DNA from: Ischnura elegans
Taxonomy: Eukaryota > Arthropoda > Insecta > Odonata > Coenagrionidae
NCBI RefSeq assembly: GCF_921293095.1
Contig: NC_060258.1
Span: 992,001-1,056,000, forward strand
Direction: 5' to 3'
Length of the DNA: 64,000 nt
Shown: positions 3,962-25,590 of the stretch, piece after piece
How the letters are laid out: every line of letters begins with the position of its first letter
Numbering within the stretch: the stretch's first letter is position 1
Made by a program: the position numbers and the translations under genes
Notes under the pieces: generated by a model
Seen by the model: the letters and a program-made list of their open reading frames with translations, nothing else
What the model was told of the DNA's origin: nothing
Databases searched by the model: none

Positions 3962-6900
3962 GTGAGTACCCTAACGGTTTTTGTTCACGTTGAATTAAGG
4001 TTATGTATCACCCGTGACCTTGAATGTTTGCCTAGCGCAAAATTGCTAACATTCTCAGGCTTAAGATAAATCAAACAATTATGTGGTGGCGGTATTTCGG
4101 TACGGAATTATTATGTGGTAAAAACTATTCCTCGCCTTTCCTTATGGTGCTTCATTTCAGTTAAGTGATTTTGTATATTGTTTCCATCCATGAAATACTA
4201 CCAAGCAGTCCATAAGAGCAATTCAAACGGACATGAATAACTTTTATTTAATTTTATCGTGCTGGGAAGAATGAAGATAGTAATCTACTACGATGATATA
4301 GTGAGCATGAATTATTTCTTATTTTATTATAAGTTATATAATGTCTCAATATTCCAGCGACAAAGGAAGACCTACACAGCACCTGCAGTGGAAGAAAACG
4401 ATTTGGTAACCCTAATGTACCAAGTGATAAGCCAGATACAGAAGCTGGTACCACTGAACAGGATACAGACATGGTGATGAGAGAAAAAGTTGACCGGGTG
4501 TGTAACAATGCGATCTACAGAAAAGTTAGTCTGTTTAATATCATTGCTAATAATACTTTATCTTTATTTTCTTCAGATTCGTAAGAAGAATTTAAAAAGA
4601 AACAACGCTGTTCTAGGCATAGAGAAATACATGGGAAACACCATGCTCTCAATGCCTCAGAATCAGAATTCTGAGTTACAAGTTGCCTTGGAAAAAGTCA
4701 GAAAATTAGAATCTGCTCTGGCAGAGAGAAGTAATGCAGACACAAGGTTAGAGACTTGCCTCAAAGAAGGCTTTAAGGCATTGGACGGCAACATGACTGC
4801 CATTCAGAAGAAATTAGAGTCTCTTGAGGAAGAAAACAATACCCTAAGAGAGAAGGTTGAGGAGTTAATGAGTAAGTCACTCAGTAATTTATTGTGAAGT
4901 AATCTTATGCAATTACTTTCGGGTTTTTCGAAGTAATGGTGTGGGAGAGTTAATTTTTTATTTCTCTTCAAATTTGTTTTTTTTGCCTGGTGGCTCTGTG
5001 CTTCATGCAAAAAGAATGGTGAGCCAACTGTACCATTGTTTTATTTCCATCAAGTATAAGGTTACCTCTGAAAGATGCCAATCTCATTGTTTTCGTATGA
5101 TTTCTCTCCAAATTAGTAGTCTTGAAAATGCTGCCCAATTTATTGGCTGAGTGATGGTGAAGAAGTTAAATCTCAGGAAAAACAATATTATTTTGTGGGT
5201 GTCTATGCTATTCTGAAGGATTTTTAAAGAAAGAATTGATGTTCTATGATAGATCAACGTTATGGTGGATGCATGTACGCCTTGTGTGCACCCTCAACAT
5301 AATACTCGAGATTTGTTAGTTGTGACAATTTTAAATTCTAGCCACCTTCTCTCTCCGTGCAGGGCAGTCAGCATCTGGGCAAAGTGATGTCATGAGTGGG
5401 GATGGTATAGGGGCAACACTGGAGGAAGACTCCAAGGTAATAGCTATTTTAGTCGCTCTAGGTAAAGTATCATTTCTCTATTAAGGCCCTAAAGCGAGTA
5501 AATCAAAGTGTGTGGCATTCAGTCACATATGAGTTGGTAAGTTTATGCATTTTTTAATATTCAAGGCAAGTTAGCCAACAATCCAACCAAATCCAACTGA
5601 TTAAATGAAGTGATTTTAAAAATGACTATAGTGTGAAATGCTGACTATGATATGAATACATTGTTTGTGAGTGACAAAACAAATAATTGAATGATAAAAA
5701 ACTATATGCCTTTAGCAGTATCACTGTGACACTTAGGATTTACAATATAGACATTGTATGAAAACATCATTCAGCATTTTAGAAAGTTTCTTTGTGTCAA
5801 TGAGACTCATAAAACAACCTGTGGCGCATCGTCCGCCACAATGTAGAGTTGGACCAGTGGATAAGTGTCCGCCTACTAATCGGACGGCGCGCGTTCGAGT
5901 CCTGGCGCCGGCCGGTATTTTTTCCTATATCTTTTCAGGAATTCTAGAAGGTTCGAGGAAGATCCGGCGCGGCGTTCCAGAATATTCGCCGCATGTATAT
6001 AAGCTAGCCATCTGGGCTACCCAGTTCAGTTCTGTATTGTCAAGTCACAATAAACGCCTCTCCGCAGATAACCGAAGTGTGTTATTTAGCGTAGCCATCG
6101 CTACAGTGGTGACCCCGACGTGATGCGACCATGGCAGACGCAGATCAACTCGCCAAAAAATCAGGCTCAAATAGCGGGACTCCAGCAGCAGCTCGCCGAA
6201 CACCAAACGAACCACAGCCAACAGCTAGCGCTCCTTCAAGAACAGCACCAACAGGCTCTGCAGCAACAACAGCAGCAAACAACGCTGTCATTGCAGCAAG
6301 CCTCACCGTCTCCATCATCCTACGGCGTCGACACTGCTGCCGTCTACCGCGTCACTCCGAAACTGCCTCCTTTCTGGCCAGCTCAGCCTGAAATATGGTT
6401 CGCCCAAGTCGAAGCACAATTTTCTTTGGCCAACATCACCTCGGACAAGACTAAATACGATTACGTCGTGGGAAACCTAGACCATCGTTTTGCCAGTGAA
6501 ATAAGCGATCTTATCGTGAATCCTCCGGCCGAGAATCGTTACCTAACGCTGAAAAACCTATTGATACAGCGCGTCTCTCCCTCCGAGGATCAACGGGTGC
6601 GGTTACTCCTCACAGCAGAAGAGCTCGGTGATACCAAGCCTTCGCAACTATTACGACGCATGCGGTCTCTCATCAGCACCACCCTTGTGGAGGATTCTTT
6701 CCTCCGCACATTATGGTTGCAACGTCTTCCGGCCAACGCTCAAGCCATCCTGCAAACGCAAGTTACTTCAATGCCTCTTGATGAACTTGCAAATATGGCT
6801 GACCGCATCGTCGCCGTGGCTCCGCCTCCAACTGCACCCGCCATCCATGCAGTACGCCATACCAACGATGTTTCGTCATTGGCCCAACGGGTTGAGAAAC

Positions 6901-9900
6901 TCTCAAAGCAGCTCGAAGATATACAAGCTCATCTGAAAAAACCTCCGTACTCACGGACTTGGAGCAGATCTCTACCCGCGCCGCGCCCCGCTCAGCCTGA
7001 GATGTGTTACTACCATCGCAAATTTGGAGCCGAAGCCAGACGTTGCATCCAGCCATGCACCGTAAATGCAGTGAATCCGGTAAACTCCAACAGCGACTCG
7101 TAACGGCGGCTATGAGTCGTTCTATCACAGGCTGCCGCCTCTTCGTCACCGACCGCCTCTCCCAGCGGCGTTTCCTCGTAGACACAGGATCGGATCTCTC
7201 AATCTACCCTGTAAAATTATGCACCGAACAACGAACCTGCACTGACTACGAGCTCTCCGCAGTCAATGACAGTAGGATCCATACTTATGGTACTTTACTT
7301 CTACGCCTTCAGTTCGGCCTCCCGCGTGACTTCCTTTGGAGATTCATCGTTGCCGACGTTACCGAGCCAATCATCGGAGCAGATTTCTTAACCCACTTTC
7401 AACTCATTCCTAACATGGCCACTGCTCAGCTCATCGACGCAATCACTGGCCATTCTACATCGGGTCATCGAGGTCGAACTTACCAGGACAGCGTGCGCGC
7501 TCTGTCGGGCTCTTCATCCTACCACGACATCCTGGCCGAATTTCCTGATATCACGCGGCCATCAGGGACTCCTCGGGAGATCCACCATCATACCAAGCAC
7601 CACATACGCCTACAACCTGGACCGCCGATCTACCACCGTGCCCGCCGTCTAGCCCCGGATCGACTCCGAGATGCACAGGCAGAATTCGAGCTTCTAGTAC
7701 GCGAAGGCACTGCTCGTCGTTCACACAGCCCTTACGCCTCACCACTACACATGGTTCGCAAGAAGGATAGTAGCTGGCGACCTTGTGGTGACTACAGGGC
7801 TCTCAACGCACGTACGATACCGGACCGCTACCCCGTCCGCCATCTGAAGGATTTCTCCCACGCTCTTCAGGGGTGCAACATCTTCAGTGTTATCGACTGT
7901 GCCAAGGCCTTCACTCAAATTCCAATGGCTCCCGAAGACATAGAGAAGACAGCCATAATTACACCCTTCGGCCTTTTTGAATTCCTATTTATGCCATTTG
8001 GACTTCAAAATGCCGCCCAAACATGGCAGCGCTTCATCGACGTAGCTCTCGAAGGCCTAAATTTTTGCTTTCCTTACATAGATGACATCTTAGTATTTTC
8101 CCGTTCGCAGGAAGAGCATCATCAACACCTGCGGATATTATTTCAGCGCCTTTCTGACTACGGTGTCATCGTCAACTCAGCTAAGTGTGTCCTAGGATCT
8201 TCCAAGGTCACATTTCTGGGCTTTCACGTGAGCGCTGACGGATGCTCGCCGTTACCTGACAAGGTAGCTGCTATCAACAACTTCCCTCCACCGAAGACCA
8301 TAAAGGACCTTCGGAGATTCCTCGGTATGCTGAATTTTTATCGACAGCACATACCACACGCCGCATCCACACAGGCCCCTCTCAATGCTCTACTTCAAGG
8401 TCCTGATATCAGTAGCTCCACTCCAATTTTCTGGACACCAGAACTTCAGCAGAGTTTCGATGCCTCTAAAGGCGGACTAGCCAAGGCGGCAACCCTGTCG
8501 CATCCAATCGACTCAGCACCTCTGGCTCTTGTCGTCGATGCTAGCCGAACCGCAATCGGCGCTGTCCTACAGCAAAATTTTGGGAACTCTTGGCAGCCAC
8601 TCGGTTTCTTCTCTCGCAAGCTGACACCTTCCCAGCAGAAGTGGAGCACTTACGACCGCGAACTCTACGCCGCCTACCAAGCAGTGAGGCACTTTCGGCC
8701 GATGGTTGAAGCCCGCGATTTCGCCATCTTCACCGATCACAAACCACTCTCTTATGCCTTTGGCCCCAGCACGAAGAGTAGCGACACCTGCTCACCACGA
8801 CAATTTAATCACCTGGAATTCATCTCACAATTCACCACGGACGTGAGACACATCTCCGGACTTGACAACGTCGTCGCGGACTGTCTCTCCAGGGTAGAAT
8901 CCATATCCACACCGTCTCCGATTGACTTCGCCGCTCTCTCTCGCTCCCAAGATGAAGACGAAGTGCTCCAAAGACTACGCCACAGCGGTACGGCTCTTCA
9001 ACTTCACCGTAGGCCTGTACCCGGAACGAACATTTCACTATGGTGCGACACCTCCATGCCAACCCCACGCCCCTACGTTACTCCCTCATATCGCCGGCAA
9101 ATCTTTGACAACATCCACTCCCTTAGTCATCCTGGTGCAAACTCCACCATTAAACTCGTCTCCCGTCGATATGTTTGGCCATCCATGCGAAAGGACTGTC
9201 GCGCATGGGCTCGCAGCTGCCTCCCCTGCCAACGTTGCAAGGTGTCTCGTCACATCACAACGCCACTTGGAGACTTCGTTCCGCCAACCAGGCGTTTCGA
9301 ACACATACATATGGACATCGTGAGTCCTCTCCCGTCTTGCTCCGGCTCCGGTAACCACATGAGCCAGCTGCGTCCGACCCCTGCGTCACGCCACATCTCA
9401 TCGCAGCGGGTCTTCATCCACAAGGACTTGGCCACATCCTCCCAGGTCTTTGTCCGCCAAGACGCTTTGCGGCCAGCCCTGCAACCACCTTACGCGGGAC
9501 CATATCCTGTCCTCAGCCGCGGTGAGAAGACGTATACCCTGTACATCAATGGCAAACCAGCCACTATATCAATCGACCGTCTCAAGCCAGCCCATCTTCT
9601 TGAGGAGGACCCTCCGCCTACTCCGTCACCAGATACCACCACTCGCTCCGGCCGCGCCGTCCGTCCTCCAGAACGTTTTGTTGCCAACACTCTGTCTCTC
9701 CTCCAAGGGGGGGAGTAGTGTGGCGCATCGTCCGCCACAATGTAGAGTTGGACCAGTGGATAAGTGTCCGCCTACTAATCGGACGGCGCGCGTTCGAGTC
9801 CTGGCGCCGGCCGGTATTTTTTCCTATATCTTTTCAGGAATTCTAGAAGGTTCGAGGAAGATCCGGCGCGGCGTTCCAGAATATTCGCCGCATGTATATA

Positions 9901-10809
9901 AGCTAGCCATCTGGGCTACCCAGTTCAGTTCTGTATTGTCAAGTCACAATAAACGCCTCTCCGCAGATAACCGAAGTGTGTTATTTAGCGTAGCCATCGC
10001 TACAAACCTTATACATTCAAGGAAATTAGAAGCACGAAAAAAATGTCTTTGGATTAAATTTTGCTGTATATATTTGTTAACAGGTGGACATAGGGGAGGG
10101 CCAAATGGTGCTAAAATCATCGCTGATCCACATGCAGCACACGACGGACCATGCTGTGTGGGGATCTGCCCTGCTCCAAGGTAGTTTCAGGGAACAAGCT
10201 CCTCTGATGAGAGTAAAGCCAAAGGGTGAGGGGCAGAAAAAATTCCCCCCCAAATTCCTGACTGCAGCTAAAATTAAGTCATTTCTTATTGTTGTTTGAA
10301 AGGATATTTCCGGTGAAAACTTGACATGTATGAAATATTTTGTAACTAACCCCTGTGATACTTTTACAGTTCTCCATCGAAAATGGCTGGAAAATCAAGA
10401 GAAATATTCTCCAGCCGAGATAGAAAAATATTTTCAAGGCCTGCCAGCGTATTTAAGTAAGCGGTGTGTGGATATGAAGGGGCCTCGTGGGTTGAGGGCG
10501 CAGATAAGTAAACTCCAGGCGGCTGGTGGTGATACGGAATCCCGTATTGCTGAATTGTGCAGAAAGTCTGCTGAGAAGGCTCACCAGAGAGGGAGCCAGA
10601 AGAGAACATATACGAGAAGAGGTGCTCCAAGTGCTACAACAGGAACCTCTTCAAGTGCCTTGAGAGGCCATCTCCCTCTGGAAGATGATGTTCCTACTCT
10701 TGAGCTGCCCCAGGATGTGGCTGCAAAGACCTTCGTTTCAGATGGGATAGTGGCCGAGTATGATGTTGGACCCATCCAGACGGCCATCATTGTCCTCCAC
10801 CAATTATGA
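3709..10809 (+). CDS. Spliced gene for a coiled-coil protein with a possible BEN-like C-terminal domain (447 aa)
   Basis: Six coding exons join in phase: 3709-3961, 4358-4497, 4577-4871, 5363-5436, 10084-10225, 10370-10809 (1344 nt, 447 aa). Every boundary has AG acceptors and GT donors, several strong (GTGAGT, GTAAGT), and the three non-zero phases all match. Residues 1-84 form a cysteine- and aromatic-rich N-terminal region I do not recognise. Residues about 165-229 are a long coiled coil (VALEKVRKLESALAERS onward). Residues 255-345 start VDIGEGQMVLKSSLIHMQ and vaguely resemble a BEN domain, the DNA/protein-binding fold of Insensitive- and BEND-type chromatin factors. The tail is basic then acidic (QKRTYTRRG). 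Coiled coil plus a C-terminal BEN domain is a known nuclear architecture, so a chromatin role is possible but unproven. Intron 4 is swollen by an LTR element in the same orientation. Confidence 0.72.
4358..4497 (+). CDS. Exon 2 of the coiled-coil/BEN-like gene
   Basis: Acceptor TATTCCAG, donor CGG|GTGTGT, 140 nt, phase 1 to 0. Encodes a polar, acidic linker ending DTDMVMREKVDR. The frame open across this stretch in another register (4259-4477) is a shadow. Confidence 0.6.
4577..4871 (+). CDS. Exon 3 of the coiled-coil/BEN-like gene (coiled coil)
   Basis: Acceptor TTTTCTTCAG, donor ATGA|GTAAGT. Encodes IRKKNLKRNNAVLGIEKYMG and then about 65 residues of heptad-patterned coiled coil ending EENNTLREKVEELM. 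Reading through the donor gives a stop within nine codons, which supports splicing here. Confidence 0.75.
5363..5436 (+). CDS. Exon 4 of the coiled-coil/BEN-like gene
   Basis: Acceptor CTCTCTCCGTGCAG, donor AAG|GTAATA, 74 nt, restoring phase 0. Encodes a Ser/Gly/acidic linker, QSASGQSDVMSGDGIGATLE. It is too short to show as an open frame and is supported by phase and splice sites only. Confidence 0.6.
5820..6105 (+). repeat. 5' LTR (286 bp) with heat-shock-element-like promoter
   Basis: Begins TGTGG and ends CTACA. From left to right it holds a tRNA-like segment (about 5848-5923, A-box-like GGACCAGTGG, B-box-like GTTCGAGTCC, then T6), two heat-shock-element patterns (5941-5955 and 5974-5988), a TATATAAG box at 5996-6003, a TTCAGT initiator whose A is at 6028, and AATAAA at 6049-6054. 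The TATA-to-initiator distance of about 32 bases is right for RNA polymerase II, so U3 would end and R begin near 6028. Confidence 0.9.
5941..5988 (+). promoter_or_regulatory. Two heat-shock elements in the LTR
   Basis: Positions 5941-5955 read aTTCt-aGAAg-gTTCg and 5974-5988 read gTTCc-aGAAt-aTTCg. Each is three perfect alternating nGAAn/nTTCn pentamers, the classic binding site of the heat-shock factor trimer. They end 8 bases upstream of the TATA box. The same pair recurs in the 3' LTR at 9840-9854 and 9873-9887. Factor binding is inferred from the pattern only. Confidence 0.7.
6106..6123 (+). promoter_or_regulatory. Primer-binding site, tRNA-Trp type
   Basis: TGGTGACCCCGACGTGA begins one base after the LTR and is complementary to the 3' end of arthropod tRNA-Trp (including CCA), as known for CsRn1-clade elements. 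Confidence 0.85.
6123..7103 (+). CDS. Gag-like region of the CsRn1-type element (fossil)
   Basis: About 326 residues from ATG 6123. A glutamine-rich coiled-coil N-terminus is followed by a capsid-like core (LPPFWPAQPEIWFAQVEAQF) typical of arthropod Ty3/gypsy gag proteins, and then a CHCC zinc-binding motif CYYHRKFGAEARRCIQPC. It overlaps the start of the pol-like frame, the usual frame-change arrangement of the family. Viral-like, treated as a fossil part. Confidence 0.85.
   Translation: MRPWQTQINSPKNQAQIAGLQQQLAEHQTNHSQQLALLQEQHQQALQQQQQQTTLSLQQASPSPSSYGVDTAAVYRVTPKLPPFWPAQPEIWFAQVEAQFSLANITSDKTKYDYVVGNLDHRFASEISDLIVNPPAENRYLTLKNLLIQRVSPSEDQRVRLLLTAEELGDTKPSQLLRRMRSLISTTLVEDSFLRTLWLQRLPANAQAILQTQVTSMPLDELANMADRIVAVAPPPTAPAIHAVRHTNDVSSLAQRVEKLSKQLEDIQAHLKKPPYSRTWSRSLPAPRPAQPEMCYYHRKFGAEARRCIQPCTVNAVNPVNSNSDS
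7113..9718 (+). CDS. Pol-like region of the CsRn1-type element (fossil)
   Basis: Parts visible in order: aspartic protease with a DTGSD motif near 7183; reverse transcriptase with a CGDYRALN block and a YIDDILVF block (about 8074-8100); RNase H with LVVDASRTAIGAVLQQ (about 8530); integrase-type zinc-binding segment (about 9100-9240); and a C-terminal region ending just before the 3' LTR. The domain order is that of Ty3/gypsy elements. It ends with a G-rich purine run directly ahead of the 3' LTR. Treated as a fossil; no functional claim is made. Confidence 0.85.
9719..10004 (+). repeat. 3' LTR (286 bp)
   Basis: Same length as the 5' LTR and identical by eye, including both heat-shock elements, the TATA box (9895-9902), the initiator and AATAAA. 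It lies only 80 bases ahead of host exon 5 and points toward it, so transcription started here could enter host exons 5 and 6. Confidence 0.92.
10084..10225 (+). CDS. Exon 5 of the coiled-coil/BEN-like gene
   Basis: Acceptor TTTGTTAACAG, donor AAAGG|GTGAGG, phase 0 to 1. Encodes VDIGEGQMVLKSSLIHMQ, then HTTDHAVWGSALLQGSF and on to RVKPK. This is the part that most resembles the start of a BEN domain. Confidence 0.6.
10370..10809 (+). CDS. Exon 6 (terminal) of the coiled-coil/BEN-like gene
   Basis: Acceptor GATACTTTTACAG; stop TGA at 10807. Encodes VLHRKWLENQEKYSPAEIEK, a PAYLSKRCVDMKG stretch, a basic segment (QKRTYTRRGAPS) and an acidic tail. A long open frame of 146 codons in this AT-rich setting with ordinary amino-acid composition argues for real coding. 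Confidence 0.7.
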
Positions 10810-11764
10810 ATCATTCATTTATTTTACCCCATAAAGAAAAGATTACTTAAGAAATGTATACAGATGATAAGGTTGAAAGCGCTATTATGGGGAACTATAT
10901 AGGTAACGATAACAAATAAATTTTGTACATAGAATCCATATTAAGAAAAAATAATAAATTTGAAATAATTGAAATGTCATTCAACAATATTCAGTTAAGC
11001 ATTCATTATAAAGCGGTGATTTTATTGATAAGATAAATTTGGAGAAAGTTAAGTGAAAGTATGTCAAATGGAAGATAAAATATTTAAAGATTTTTAAATT
11101 CAATTATGAAGTCTAGGTCAAAGGAATTTGCTTCTTTAATCATTCTTGGTATAAATGATTCTCTTAGTAATACTGTTTATACAAGTGTAAGTGAAGTAAA
11201 TTCTCGGAGCATGAAATTCATTAGTTGAGAAGTTTGTACAAAAAGTCTAGAATTTGACTGTTTTTCTCAAAGTAGCCATTGTTTATATTATAATTAATCG
11301 TAATTGTACTTTTAATATGAAGATATGTGACTGTTACATATTTCTTTAAATTCATTGTCATAAAATTACTTGAACGCCAGCAAAAAGCACAAAAGGTGGA
11401 ATTCTACCTGGGCCTGGCCTCATTGTGGTGTATGATGAACAAAGTTTCTTAAGTTCTTATGTGATTGTATGATGTATTTGTAAATAAGTATGTAGTATTT
11501 AAAAAAATATAATTGTTCTATCATAACAGCTAACTTTATGGTTTCCATTTCATTCGTGGACCCTGATTGACCTGAATGTCACTGATTTATTCTTCATTTA
11601 ATTTATTCACTGCAAGAATGTATGGACGCATTGGCAAGTGTTTCCTTAGCGTTCAAGAATGATGCAAATCACACTAGCATCTTACATTATGTTGATGAAC
11701 ATACTCAATAGCTTAGACAGGGCATTCTCAAATTTACGTAAACGCTCCAAAATGCTGAAAAACG
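10810..11764 (+). other. 3' UTR and downstream AT-rich spacer
   Basis: A poly(A) signal AATAAA lies at about 10915, about 100 bases after the stop. Beyond it the sequence is AT-rich and I see no gene or repeat until the foldback at 11765. Confidence 0.5.
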
Positions 11765-12041
11765 CTATCCCAGTGCGTTCTCGAGCGGAAATGTGAACGC
11801 CTTCGAGCGTTCTCAAACACTATACAGAGCGTTTCACCGAGCGTTCAGCAATGTTTCTGACTGTTTGTTAATGTTCTCAAACGTTCACGAACGCCCTGCG
11901 AATAGCACTCACAGGGTGTTCATGAACGTTTGAGAACATAAACAAACAGAAACATTGCTAAACGCTCGGTGAAACGCTCTGCAGAGTGTTTGAGAACGCT
12001 CGAAGGCGTTCACATTTCCGCTCGAGAACGCACTGGGATAG
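11765..12041. repeat. Foldback hairpin, arms about 130 bp, 13-nt loop
   Basis: Arm 11765-11898 (CTATCCCAGTGCGTTCTCGA...) is the inverted copy of 11912-12041 (...TCGAGAACGCACTGGGATAG), with only scattered mismatches and a loop of about 13 bases. Inside each arm the motif GAACGYTCGAG / CGAGCGTTC recurs several times. No coding frame fits. Weaker similarity extends outward on both sides, so it is probably the core of a foldback-type mobile element; a piggyBac-like element has inserted just to its right. Confidence 0.9.
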
Positions 12042-12361
12042 TGTTCTTTGAGTGTTCTTCGCAGTTTATGCACACCTCCGTGTTGCGTTCTTAACCCTCA
12101 TATGGATTCTCTGCGCCTTAGCGGCGCTCGTGGTTTTAAAAGTGGTGTAAAAATTTTCCATTCCAATGGATCATTCTGAAATTTACAGTAGTCTATTTTT
12201 TCTGCCTCCTTCGTCTACGCATAAAATTTTGTTAGCATAGTGTCGATAGTTTACATTTTATTGGCCTCTAATGGAAAAAGTTACGTCGTTGGATTTTCTG
12301 CGCCGCTGCGGCGCTCAGTATTTCCTCGTCGCTACGTCATTGACTGCACTCCCAATGTTAA

Positions 12362-24099: not shown

Positions 24100-25590
24100 C
24101 CCTCTTGTTAGTTTTTGACCTCCAATGAATACGTAGGGGTCAAATGTCACAGAATCTTTCACGGAAATATCAGGACAACTTCCATAACAGACAAAAGGTT
24201 TTAAAAGTTGTTCTAAGATATGGTGCTGTCCACATATCAAGAGGTTACCCTACATAAGTTACAAAGTTACACATTGACCTTATTGTGTGTCTCAAAAACT
24301 GTTTGATGCATTTTTCAAGTATTTTAATGCAGGCACCCTTACCTCAGCAACAATGTTACCCATTTGGGAAACTCTTCAGCTGCATGTCTCTTTGGCATTA
24401 GTTTGTCGTTAGTCGTAGTGGAAAGAACTACCATGAAGAGCCTAACTCCCGCAATCGGGGCGGATATAATCGAGATATGCTATGCTGGAGGAAAGCCTTT
24501 CCCGGGATATGGAGCGTGAAAACATTGGAAATGCTGAGGAAGTGAGGTTGCAGCAGGATGGAACTCCTGCACACAGGTCTAAGGCAGTCCTCAATGTGCT
24601 GAAAGAGAAGTTTGGAAATCGGCTTAATCGAGTTTTATACATATGACTTTGACTTTATCATTAATAAAAACCAAAATTTTACTTTCATTTCAACGCACAG
24701 TTAAGTTTGAAATTAGCTCAACACGACCCAACATCTCTTTATTAATCACTAATTTAGTAACATTGAAATGGGAACGGCACCACCCTTTAGAACACATTTT
24801 AAACCTTTAATTTAGCATGATGTTCACCGCTGCATTGTCTTGGGGCATCCTTGAAAACTTTCCGGCTAGTGATTTAATTCCCTGGATATTTTTGTGCAAA
24901 CCTCAGTGAATGTTGGCCACCTTATGACCTCAGGAGGGTAATGACTTAACAAAATGAACACTATTCACTCACTAGGTCACCCTTTGGTTGGGGACATTAG
25001 TTTCCTTGAAATATCAAAGCATGCCTTCATGATCTTTGACTCCCATTATGACCTATGGAGGTCAAAAAATCAACAATACTGATAAATAAACTGCAAAACT
25101 GTCGTAAGAACCCTTAAAAACCCATGGGTCGACACGCTGGTTGTCACGATGGCCCGACGTTTACCTCAAAGACCCTTGACCCCCATTGTGACCTCCTAAG
25201 GTCAAAATATCAACAATACTGATAAATGAACTGCAAAAATGACTAAAGCACCCTTATGTCCTTTACTGTGACCTTGCTGGGTCAACAGTTGAATATTCGT
25301 GAACAAAAGTGTTATTTTCACTTTGCTCATATTCGAAAACCTACGAATTGACATTCTGATCAATGAAATTCTGACTTTTTCCTATCTCGATTTTTTTAAC
25401 ATTGAAACCCCATAAGGTTAATTCAAGATTTTGGTTAGGGCCCACATTGTGAGGTCAAATGATCAAAATTCTAAAAATTTGCTTGCATTCAACAACACAT
25501 AGAACCTTTCCCCACAAGTATGCCAATTTTCACGAATATTTGCTGGAGTGGGAGTTACTAAAATTAGAGGTCAAAAATGACGCACCACCA
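24100..25590. repeat. Old repeat region with recurring TGACC...GGTCA motifs
   Basis: Two direct copies about 133 bp apart (25038 and 25170) share GACYCCCATTRTGACCT, then AGGTCAAA and ATCAACAATACTGATAAA. Looser copies of the TGACCT...AGGTCA arrangement occur near 24116, 25268, 25450 and 25567. It looks like an aged satellite-like or transposon-internal array. AGGTCA is also the nuclear-receptor half-site, but that may be coincidence. Confidence 0.6.
24465..24645 (+). pseudogene. Tc1/mariner-type transposase remnant
   Basis: A plus-strand frame reads MLEESLSRDMERENIGNAEE then LQQDGTPAHRSKAVLNVLKE and KFGNRLN. LQQDG.PAH followed by a helix is the second-aspartate block of IS630/Tc1/mariner-type DDE transposases. 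Only about 60 codons are left; no inverted repeats were found. Confidence 0.6.

Follow-up and report, generated by a model that had tools for sequence, protein, structure and literature searches.

Heat-activated LTR elements have already been documented in plants. For example, by the available text, transcripts accumulated up to hundred-fold in Brassicaceae COPIA elements with three-pentamer sites, and in those with four pentamers up to thousand-fold (PMC5059998). tRNA-like LTRs have been described by Kojima (2024) in short non-coding TRIMs, and the sections available consider it improbable that an autonomous partner would have a long stretch of LTR in common with such TRIMs (PMC10886601). In addition, the available description of the CsRn1 clade names a CHCC motif in Gag and a tRNA-Trp primer site as its traits (PMC2582038). 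Literature searches of open-licence papers, by titles and the starts of abstracts, yielded among the matches listed no described heat-shock elements (HSEs) in an animal Ty3/gypsy LTR and, for tRNA-like LTRs, no protein-coding case that bears HSEs.

The genome under study comprises 1.72 Gb, and the window (the whole stretch of 64,000 nucleotides analysed here, G000:C13:992001-1056000) contains an element of 4,185 bp, ending at 10004, in which PBS, polypurine tract (PPT) and a 4-bp TSD are all present. The original prediction had placed an LTR at 5820-6105, and this proves to be exactly the 5' LTR, with an identical copy at 9719-10004. The features of the element, in window coordinates, are as follows.

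5816-5819, no strand: TSD AACC, left copy; AACC stands before the 5' LTR and after the 3' LTR (10005-10008)
5820-6105, plus strand: 5' LTR, 286 bp, TG...CA, defined by its identity to 9719-10004
5848-5917, plus strand: tRNA-like unit, with A box at 5850-5860 (TGGACCAGTGG) and B box at 5892-5902 (CGTTCGAGTCC)
5918-5923, plus strand: T6, possible Pol III terminator; T6 in 40/40 copies, many of which had been selected through a sequence containing T6
5941-5955, plus strand: HSE1, aTTCtaGAAggTTCg, core TTCTAGAAGGTTC at 5942-5954; intact in 38/40 copies
5974-5988, plus strand: HSE2, gTTCcaGAAtaTTCg, core TTCCAGAATATTC at 5975-5987; intact in 36/40 copies
5996-6003, plus strand: TATA box, TATATAAG, present in 39/40 family A copies
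6025-6030, plus strand: TTCAGT, likely initiator and putative start site; CAGTTCAGT is common to families A, B and C
6049-6054, plus strand: AATAAA poly(A) signal, from sequence
6107-6123, plus strand: PBS, TGGTGACCCCGACGTGA, able to pair with the end of a tRNA-Trp-like gene in the same genome
6126-7103, plus strand: gag open frame (piece scanned), with DUF7041 and a CHCC motif at 7005-7058
7001-9718, plus strand: pol open frame, with RT, RNase H and integrase zinc domain
9704-9718, plus strand: polypurine tract, CAAGGGGGGGAGTAG, from sequence
9719-10004, plus strand: 3' LTR, in which the HSEs recur at 9841-9853 and 9874-9886

The proposed CsRn1-type membership agrees with both the Gag motif and the primer site. 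In Gag, CYYHRKFGAEARRCIQPC at 7005-7058 fits the pattern CX2HX9CX3C of the CHCC motif, and the PBS, from 6107, complements the end of a tRNA gene that we take, from its anticodon, to be tRNA-Trp; the complementary tRNA-end pattern occurs at three places in the genome, with letters printed for one, and at none in the reversed control. Together with the RT, RNase H and integrase zinc domains, these traits place the element among CsRn1-type Ty3/gypsy retrotransposons. A domain scan of the window's pol frame gave no match to the integrase core; the core is present in 2/2 other copies scanned for the integrase region, and the pol frame of other family copies measures 1062 aa. At least 38 other near-full-length LTR copies were found in the genome (40 of 152 candidates scored). 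The element is best explained as a recently active CsRn1-type Ty3/gypsy retrotransposon, with the LTR as its putative promoter. Elsewhere in the window, a 23-bp unit forms a tandem array at 2592-2971, and an inverted repeat at 11758-12048, with 109-nt arms that are 94% complementary and lie 73 nt apart, is perhaps a foldback element.

Within the LTR, two perfect HSEs had been predicted 8-55 bases before the TATA box, and both sequence and position hold: TTCTAGAAGGTTC and TTCCAGAATATTC each consist of three exact alternating pentamers, and the HSE2 core lies 8 nt from TATATAAG. The three or more adjacent nGAAn pentamers that mark an ONSEN-type LTR are therefore present twice. The TTCAGT initiator is likewise found downstream, at 29 nt from the first T of the TATA box rather than at the original estimate of about 32. 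Among 200,000 dinucleotide-preserving shuffles of the LTR, one trimer arose in 347 and two trimers in none, which bears out the view that a chance origin of the paired sites is unlikely. In the 63,428 nt of the window that lie outside the LTRs, a trimer occurs twice, at 25291 and 63365. A genome-wide pattern of two trimers 8-38 nt apart was found at 114 places, a total that is not read as enrichment because the reversed control is high (81, from 7 + 74). The 46-nt geometry of the window LTR recurs at 63 of the 100 places listed out of 114, and 34 of the 58 places with printed letters are window-type LTRs, as counted by eye. The use of hsp70 as a positive control for paired HSEs failed, with 0/39 HSP70 matches at the 100 of 114 places listed. 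Paired trimers were also observed at three places within 41 kb at G000:C6:2184409-2225273, away from HSP70 matches, and this group is perhaps a cluster of other heat-shock genes. As for the heat-shock factor (HSF), the genome contains a match of 60.8 bits to its DNA-binding domain, interrupted by stops that are read as an intron.

We lean slightly towards the reading that the LTR is a Pol II promoter, drivable by HSF, of a recently active CsRn1-type element and carries a tRNA-derived unit upstream. Pol II would start near TTCAGT, directed by the TATA box, and host HSF would drive this promoter through the two adjacent three-pentamer HSEs 8-55 bp upstream. Transcription and transposition would then be expected to rise with heat or other HSF-activating stress, by analogy with ONSEN.

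For the window's own family (family A), the original prediction would have been refuted by LTRs that lack the pentamers; the trios are instead intact in most copies examined, each at the count listed above and both together in 34/40. The 40 copies include the window's two LTRs and are what was left of 46 LTR matches once any shorter than 280 nt had been removed and those indistinguishable in sequence and 15-bp flanks had been merged. The merged pairs L014/L016 and L015/L017 sit at different genome places: two family A elements at G000:C9:77384945-77403014 have LTR sequences and 15-bp flanks that are pairwise equal, probably by segmental duplication. Identity to the window LTR is 98-100% for most family A copies, which makes them weak evidence of conservation. 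Their intact HSEs show only that the copies that spread had both, and selection cannot be inferred from family A.

Relatives were found by a search with an RT piece, in which 150 of 2586 candidates were scored. Family B has an RT 82-91% identical to that of family A and an LTR of 229 bp, and family C (L051 type) an RT 74-79% identical and an LTR of about 379 bp. Among the 20 loci of this RT ladder, L047 and L049 are without a recognisable LTR, L064 is without a primer site, and L054 has no more than part of a C LTR, some pieces of it inverted. The C alignment comprises 13 LTRs after 5/18 loci with a match of at most 350 nt were dropped, and the young group of the identity comparison excludes L108. 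Because 11/13 of the C LTRs came to light by an exact (0-mismatch) match to the tRNA-like part, the sampling of family C favours that part. Two tandem arrangements of C sequences were also observed: at G000:C1:100349095-100349923, the last 101 bp of a C LTR stand in eight tandem copies with 104-bp spacing, perhaps a satellite in the making, and at G000:C6:95054239-95059048 three C LTRs form an array with a spacing of about 2,215 bp.

The tRNA-like unit, which the original prediction overlooked, sits between the 5' stem of the LTR and HSE1, in the first half of U3. The unit with its T6 (5848-5923 in the 5' LTR) recurs at 9747-9822 in the 3' LTR, and its A box and B box are 42 nt apart. Counts of A box, B box and T6 in family A are biased, since copies were chosen by that stretch. 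The consensus of the A box is TRGYNNANNNG, to which the A box of the family A unit has one mismatch. Compared with 12 tRNA genes of the same genome, this unit reached a local score of 20, against 19 for the best of 1000 shuffles, and the best-scoring gene is presumably tRNA-Arg from its anticodon; the 12 distinct sequences were drawn from 30 of 61 genome matches and represent part of the isotypes. No tRNA was reported in the A unit by ARAGORN (bacterial mode, window) or by Rfam (LTR), and a stricter two-box search (TRGYNNANNNGG, at most 1 mismatch) detected the boxes in C and not in A.

Family C provides a second view of this unit. The A and C units align with a score of 20 (best of 2000 shuffles 15), and the C unit scores 21 against the tRNA genes (best of 1000 shuffles 15). 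The Rfam tRNA model covers the whole C unit, but at 19.1 bits (E 0.22) the match falls short of the 29-bit cut-off. Rfam ranked a bacterial trpB motif first for C, with 26.4 bits and E 0.14, which was put down to chance; the tRNA model came second. The part of the C unit that was not used for finding copies has an identity of 0.917 between young and old copies (neighbours 0.75 and 0.70), and among old copies alone 0.867 vs 0.822 and 0.805 beside it, which is a small contrast; one C locus, L103, has a 5-nt gap in the A box. An alignment of 80 nt joins the LTRs of A and C at 70% identity (E 3e-7, from a search set of only three LTRs), and the 22 LTRs of family B that were compared are without a tRNA-like unit. 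Judged by these alignments, the A unit is homologous to the C unit and has no counterpart in B; its putative tRNA-like identity rests on the 12 tRNA sequences and on the comparison with family C.

Family A is nearer to B by RT identity and nearer to C by its U3 cassette. The tRNA-like unit may have been present in the ancestor and lost from B; otherwise, A and C would have acquired it independently or through recombination. On this latter view, A and C would each have taken the unit over from similar SINEs, or A would have received it from a C-like LTR through recombination, and the shared architecture would not be one ancestral state. We rate this at a little below even, and it is compatible with the reading of the LTR as an HSF-drivable promoter. 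Family B, the closer to A by RT, is without the unit, and the rest of the A LTR is more like B (R-U5 77% over 75 nt) than C, as a separate gain would predict. On the other hand, the homology of A and C runs past the tRNA-like part into TTCTAGAA, and no free SINE source has come to light: the pattern common to the A and C units has 354 genomic occurrences, against 0 for the reversed control, and all 20 loci examined, from the 100 of 354 places listed, belong to complete or broken LTRs of A or C.

The HSEs, too, were compared across families. A perfect trimer is found in 0/22 family B LTRs, and the pair GAAnnTTC stands at the HSE1 position in 20/22; the HSE region of A aligns directly with its B counterpart, so that the perfect trimers are only a short way in sequence from the partial sites of B. 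Family B has spread despite having neither trimers nor the tRNA-like unit. The distant relatives L055-L066 (12 loci, RT 57-71%, 1.4 kb each) gave no HSE trimer; the LTR is in view for 11/12 of them, as the primer site was found there, and they represent fewer than twelve families because several share one LTR type. The presence of HSEs in A and C but not in B or the distant relatives indicates, on these alignments, that gain or loss of the trait has taken place from one family to another.

In family C the HSE1 trimer is present in 12/13 aligned LTRs, and a trimer at the HSE2 position in 5/6 older LTRs and 0/7 younger ones. L100 has four contiguous pentamers, with the window's TTCCAGAATATTC among them. 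The HSEs of C adjoin a TATA-like box whose identity among old copies is 0.963, and the HSE2 core of these old copies has the same identity of 0.963, compared with 0.80-0.81 in the stretches on either side. By alignment column, the identity of the C HSE1 core is 0.611 between young and old copies and 0.356 among old copies, low values that result from a deletion: in three old copies, 13-17 bp are missing with one of the two copies of TTCTAGAA. Two of the three still read TTCTAGAATTTTC, and so retain the trimer. Family C is better evidence for the HSEs than the near-identical copies of A.

These comparisons bear on the view that the trimers are functionless hitch-hikers, which a founder LTR happened to have and which recent bursts copied. 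We regard this as doubtful, given that two trimers arose in none of the LTR shuffles and that trimers recur in C beside a TATA-like box, with the HSE2 core of old copies better conserved than its flanks; the close identity of the A copies, the lack of a trimer in 22/22 LTRs of the sister family B and the seven younger C LTRs without an HSE2 trimer are what hitch-hiking would produce.

HSF acts outside heat shock in animals, and the same sites could serve it there. Papers on such roles are among the references of PMC6927752. HSF would then bind the LTR in the germ line or in development without heat, as a constitutive germ-line activator and not a stress switch, and a recent spread to many places does need germ-line expression; nevertheless, we think it unlikely that this is how the LTR works. 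The reading of the LTR as a heat-responsive HSF-driven promoter remains plausible, with comparative support from the related families.

Three family A copies (L116, L010 and L033) are internally deleted, and each retains LTRs, PBS, PPT and a 4-bp TSD. L116 (G000:C10:81300000-81301300) measures 1,063 bp, which is inside the size range of Helenus, a tRNA-like TRIM, and has the layout of a Helenus TRIM; it may have moved in this short form or have lost its interior after insertion. Within L010, about 350 bp of the interior consist of 5' internal region in inverted orientation. That the tRNA-like unit is the main promoter, from which Pol III would make the template RNA in the manner put forward for Helenus and Cassandra, is very improbable: the A and B boxes at their 42-nt distance, the homologous unit in C and the miniature L116 speak for it, but the T6 directly after the unit should halt Pol III inside U3, the element has a length of 4,185 bp and carries TATA box, initiator and AATAAA, and Kojima argues in section 4.2 that autonomous partners must use Pol II (PMC10886601).

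The unit may have another role beside the HSF-drivable Pol II promoter. It might recruit TFIIIC and Pol III, whose product would be at most a short RNA ending inside U3, and not genomic RNA, because of the T6 right after the unit; it might also act as an open-chromatin or boundary element. The recurrence of both HSEs and tRNA-like unit in a related family may point to heat switching combined with two kinds of promoter, and we infer both heat induction and Pol III transcription from sequence. A bolder reading, which we hold as tentative and rather improbable, is that an autonomous Ty3/gypsy LTR has a double promoter, formed by a Pol III unit derived from a tRNA and a Pol II core driven by HSF, both heat-responsive, in which Pol III/TFIIIC would keep the LTR open and HSF would fire it, and that miniatures such as L116 show the birth of a Helenus-type TRIM that keeps the LTR.

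Among known systems, DIRS-1 of Dictyostelium is like the window LTR in having a heat-shock promoter in the terminal repeat of a retroelement; unlike the window's Ty3/gypsy element, it is a tyrosine-recombinase element of an amoeba. ONSEN/COPIA78 and other heat-responsive COPIA elements of Brassicaceae likewise carry LTR clusters of at least three nGAAn pentamers, and in the available text their HSEs are gained and lost between related families, as here. Those are plant Ty1/copia elements with measured induction, whereas the present case is an animal Ty3/gypsy element known from sequence; the same text mentions no tRNA-like unit, which the window family has (PMC5059998). The HSE-bearing Helitrons of Caenorhabditis are, like the window element, animal mobile elements with HSEs, but by the available account they are DNA transposons, and the HSEs of the window sit at the element's own core promoter (PMC6927752). 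The CsRn1 clade shares the CHCC Gag and the tRNA-Trp primer site, and in the available text of its description no HSE or tRNA-like unit was found and the word 'heat' is absent (PMC2582038). If induction is true, dozens of mobile heat-shock promoters would be present in an animal genome, and could bring nearby genes under HSF control.

Helenus (TRIMp3), as set out in the available sections, shares with the window element the tRNA-like unit in the LTR, PBS, PPT, a link to Gypsy and, in animals, a 4-bp TSD (PMC10886601). The tRNA-like LTR sequence is found in A by comparison with tRNA genes and with C, and in C by an Rfam match below the cut-off. Helenus is non-coding and 311-1263 bp long, whereas the window element has gag and pol in 4,185 bp, and its family additionally carries TATA box, initiator, AATAAA and HSEs (PMC10886601). 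The window family is thus protein-coding (gag, RT, RNase H, integrase) and yet carries a tRNA-like unit, contrary to Kojima's expectation, and its unit bears on the question raised by Kojima (2024) of the origin and mobilisers of TRIMs with tRNA-like LTRs.
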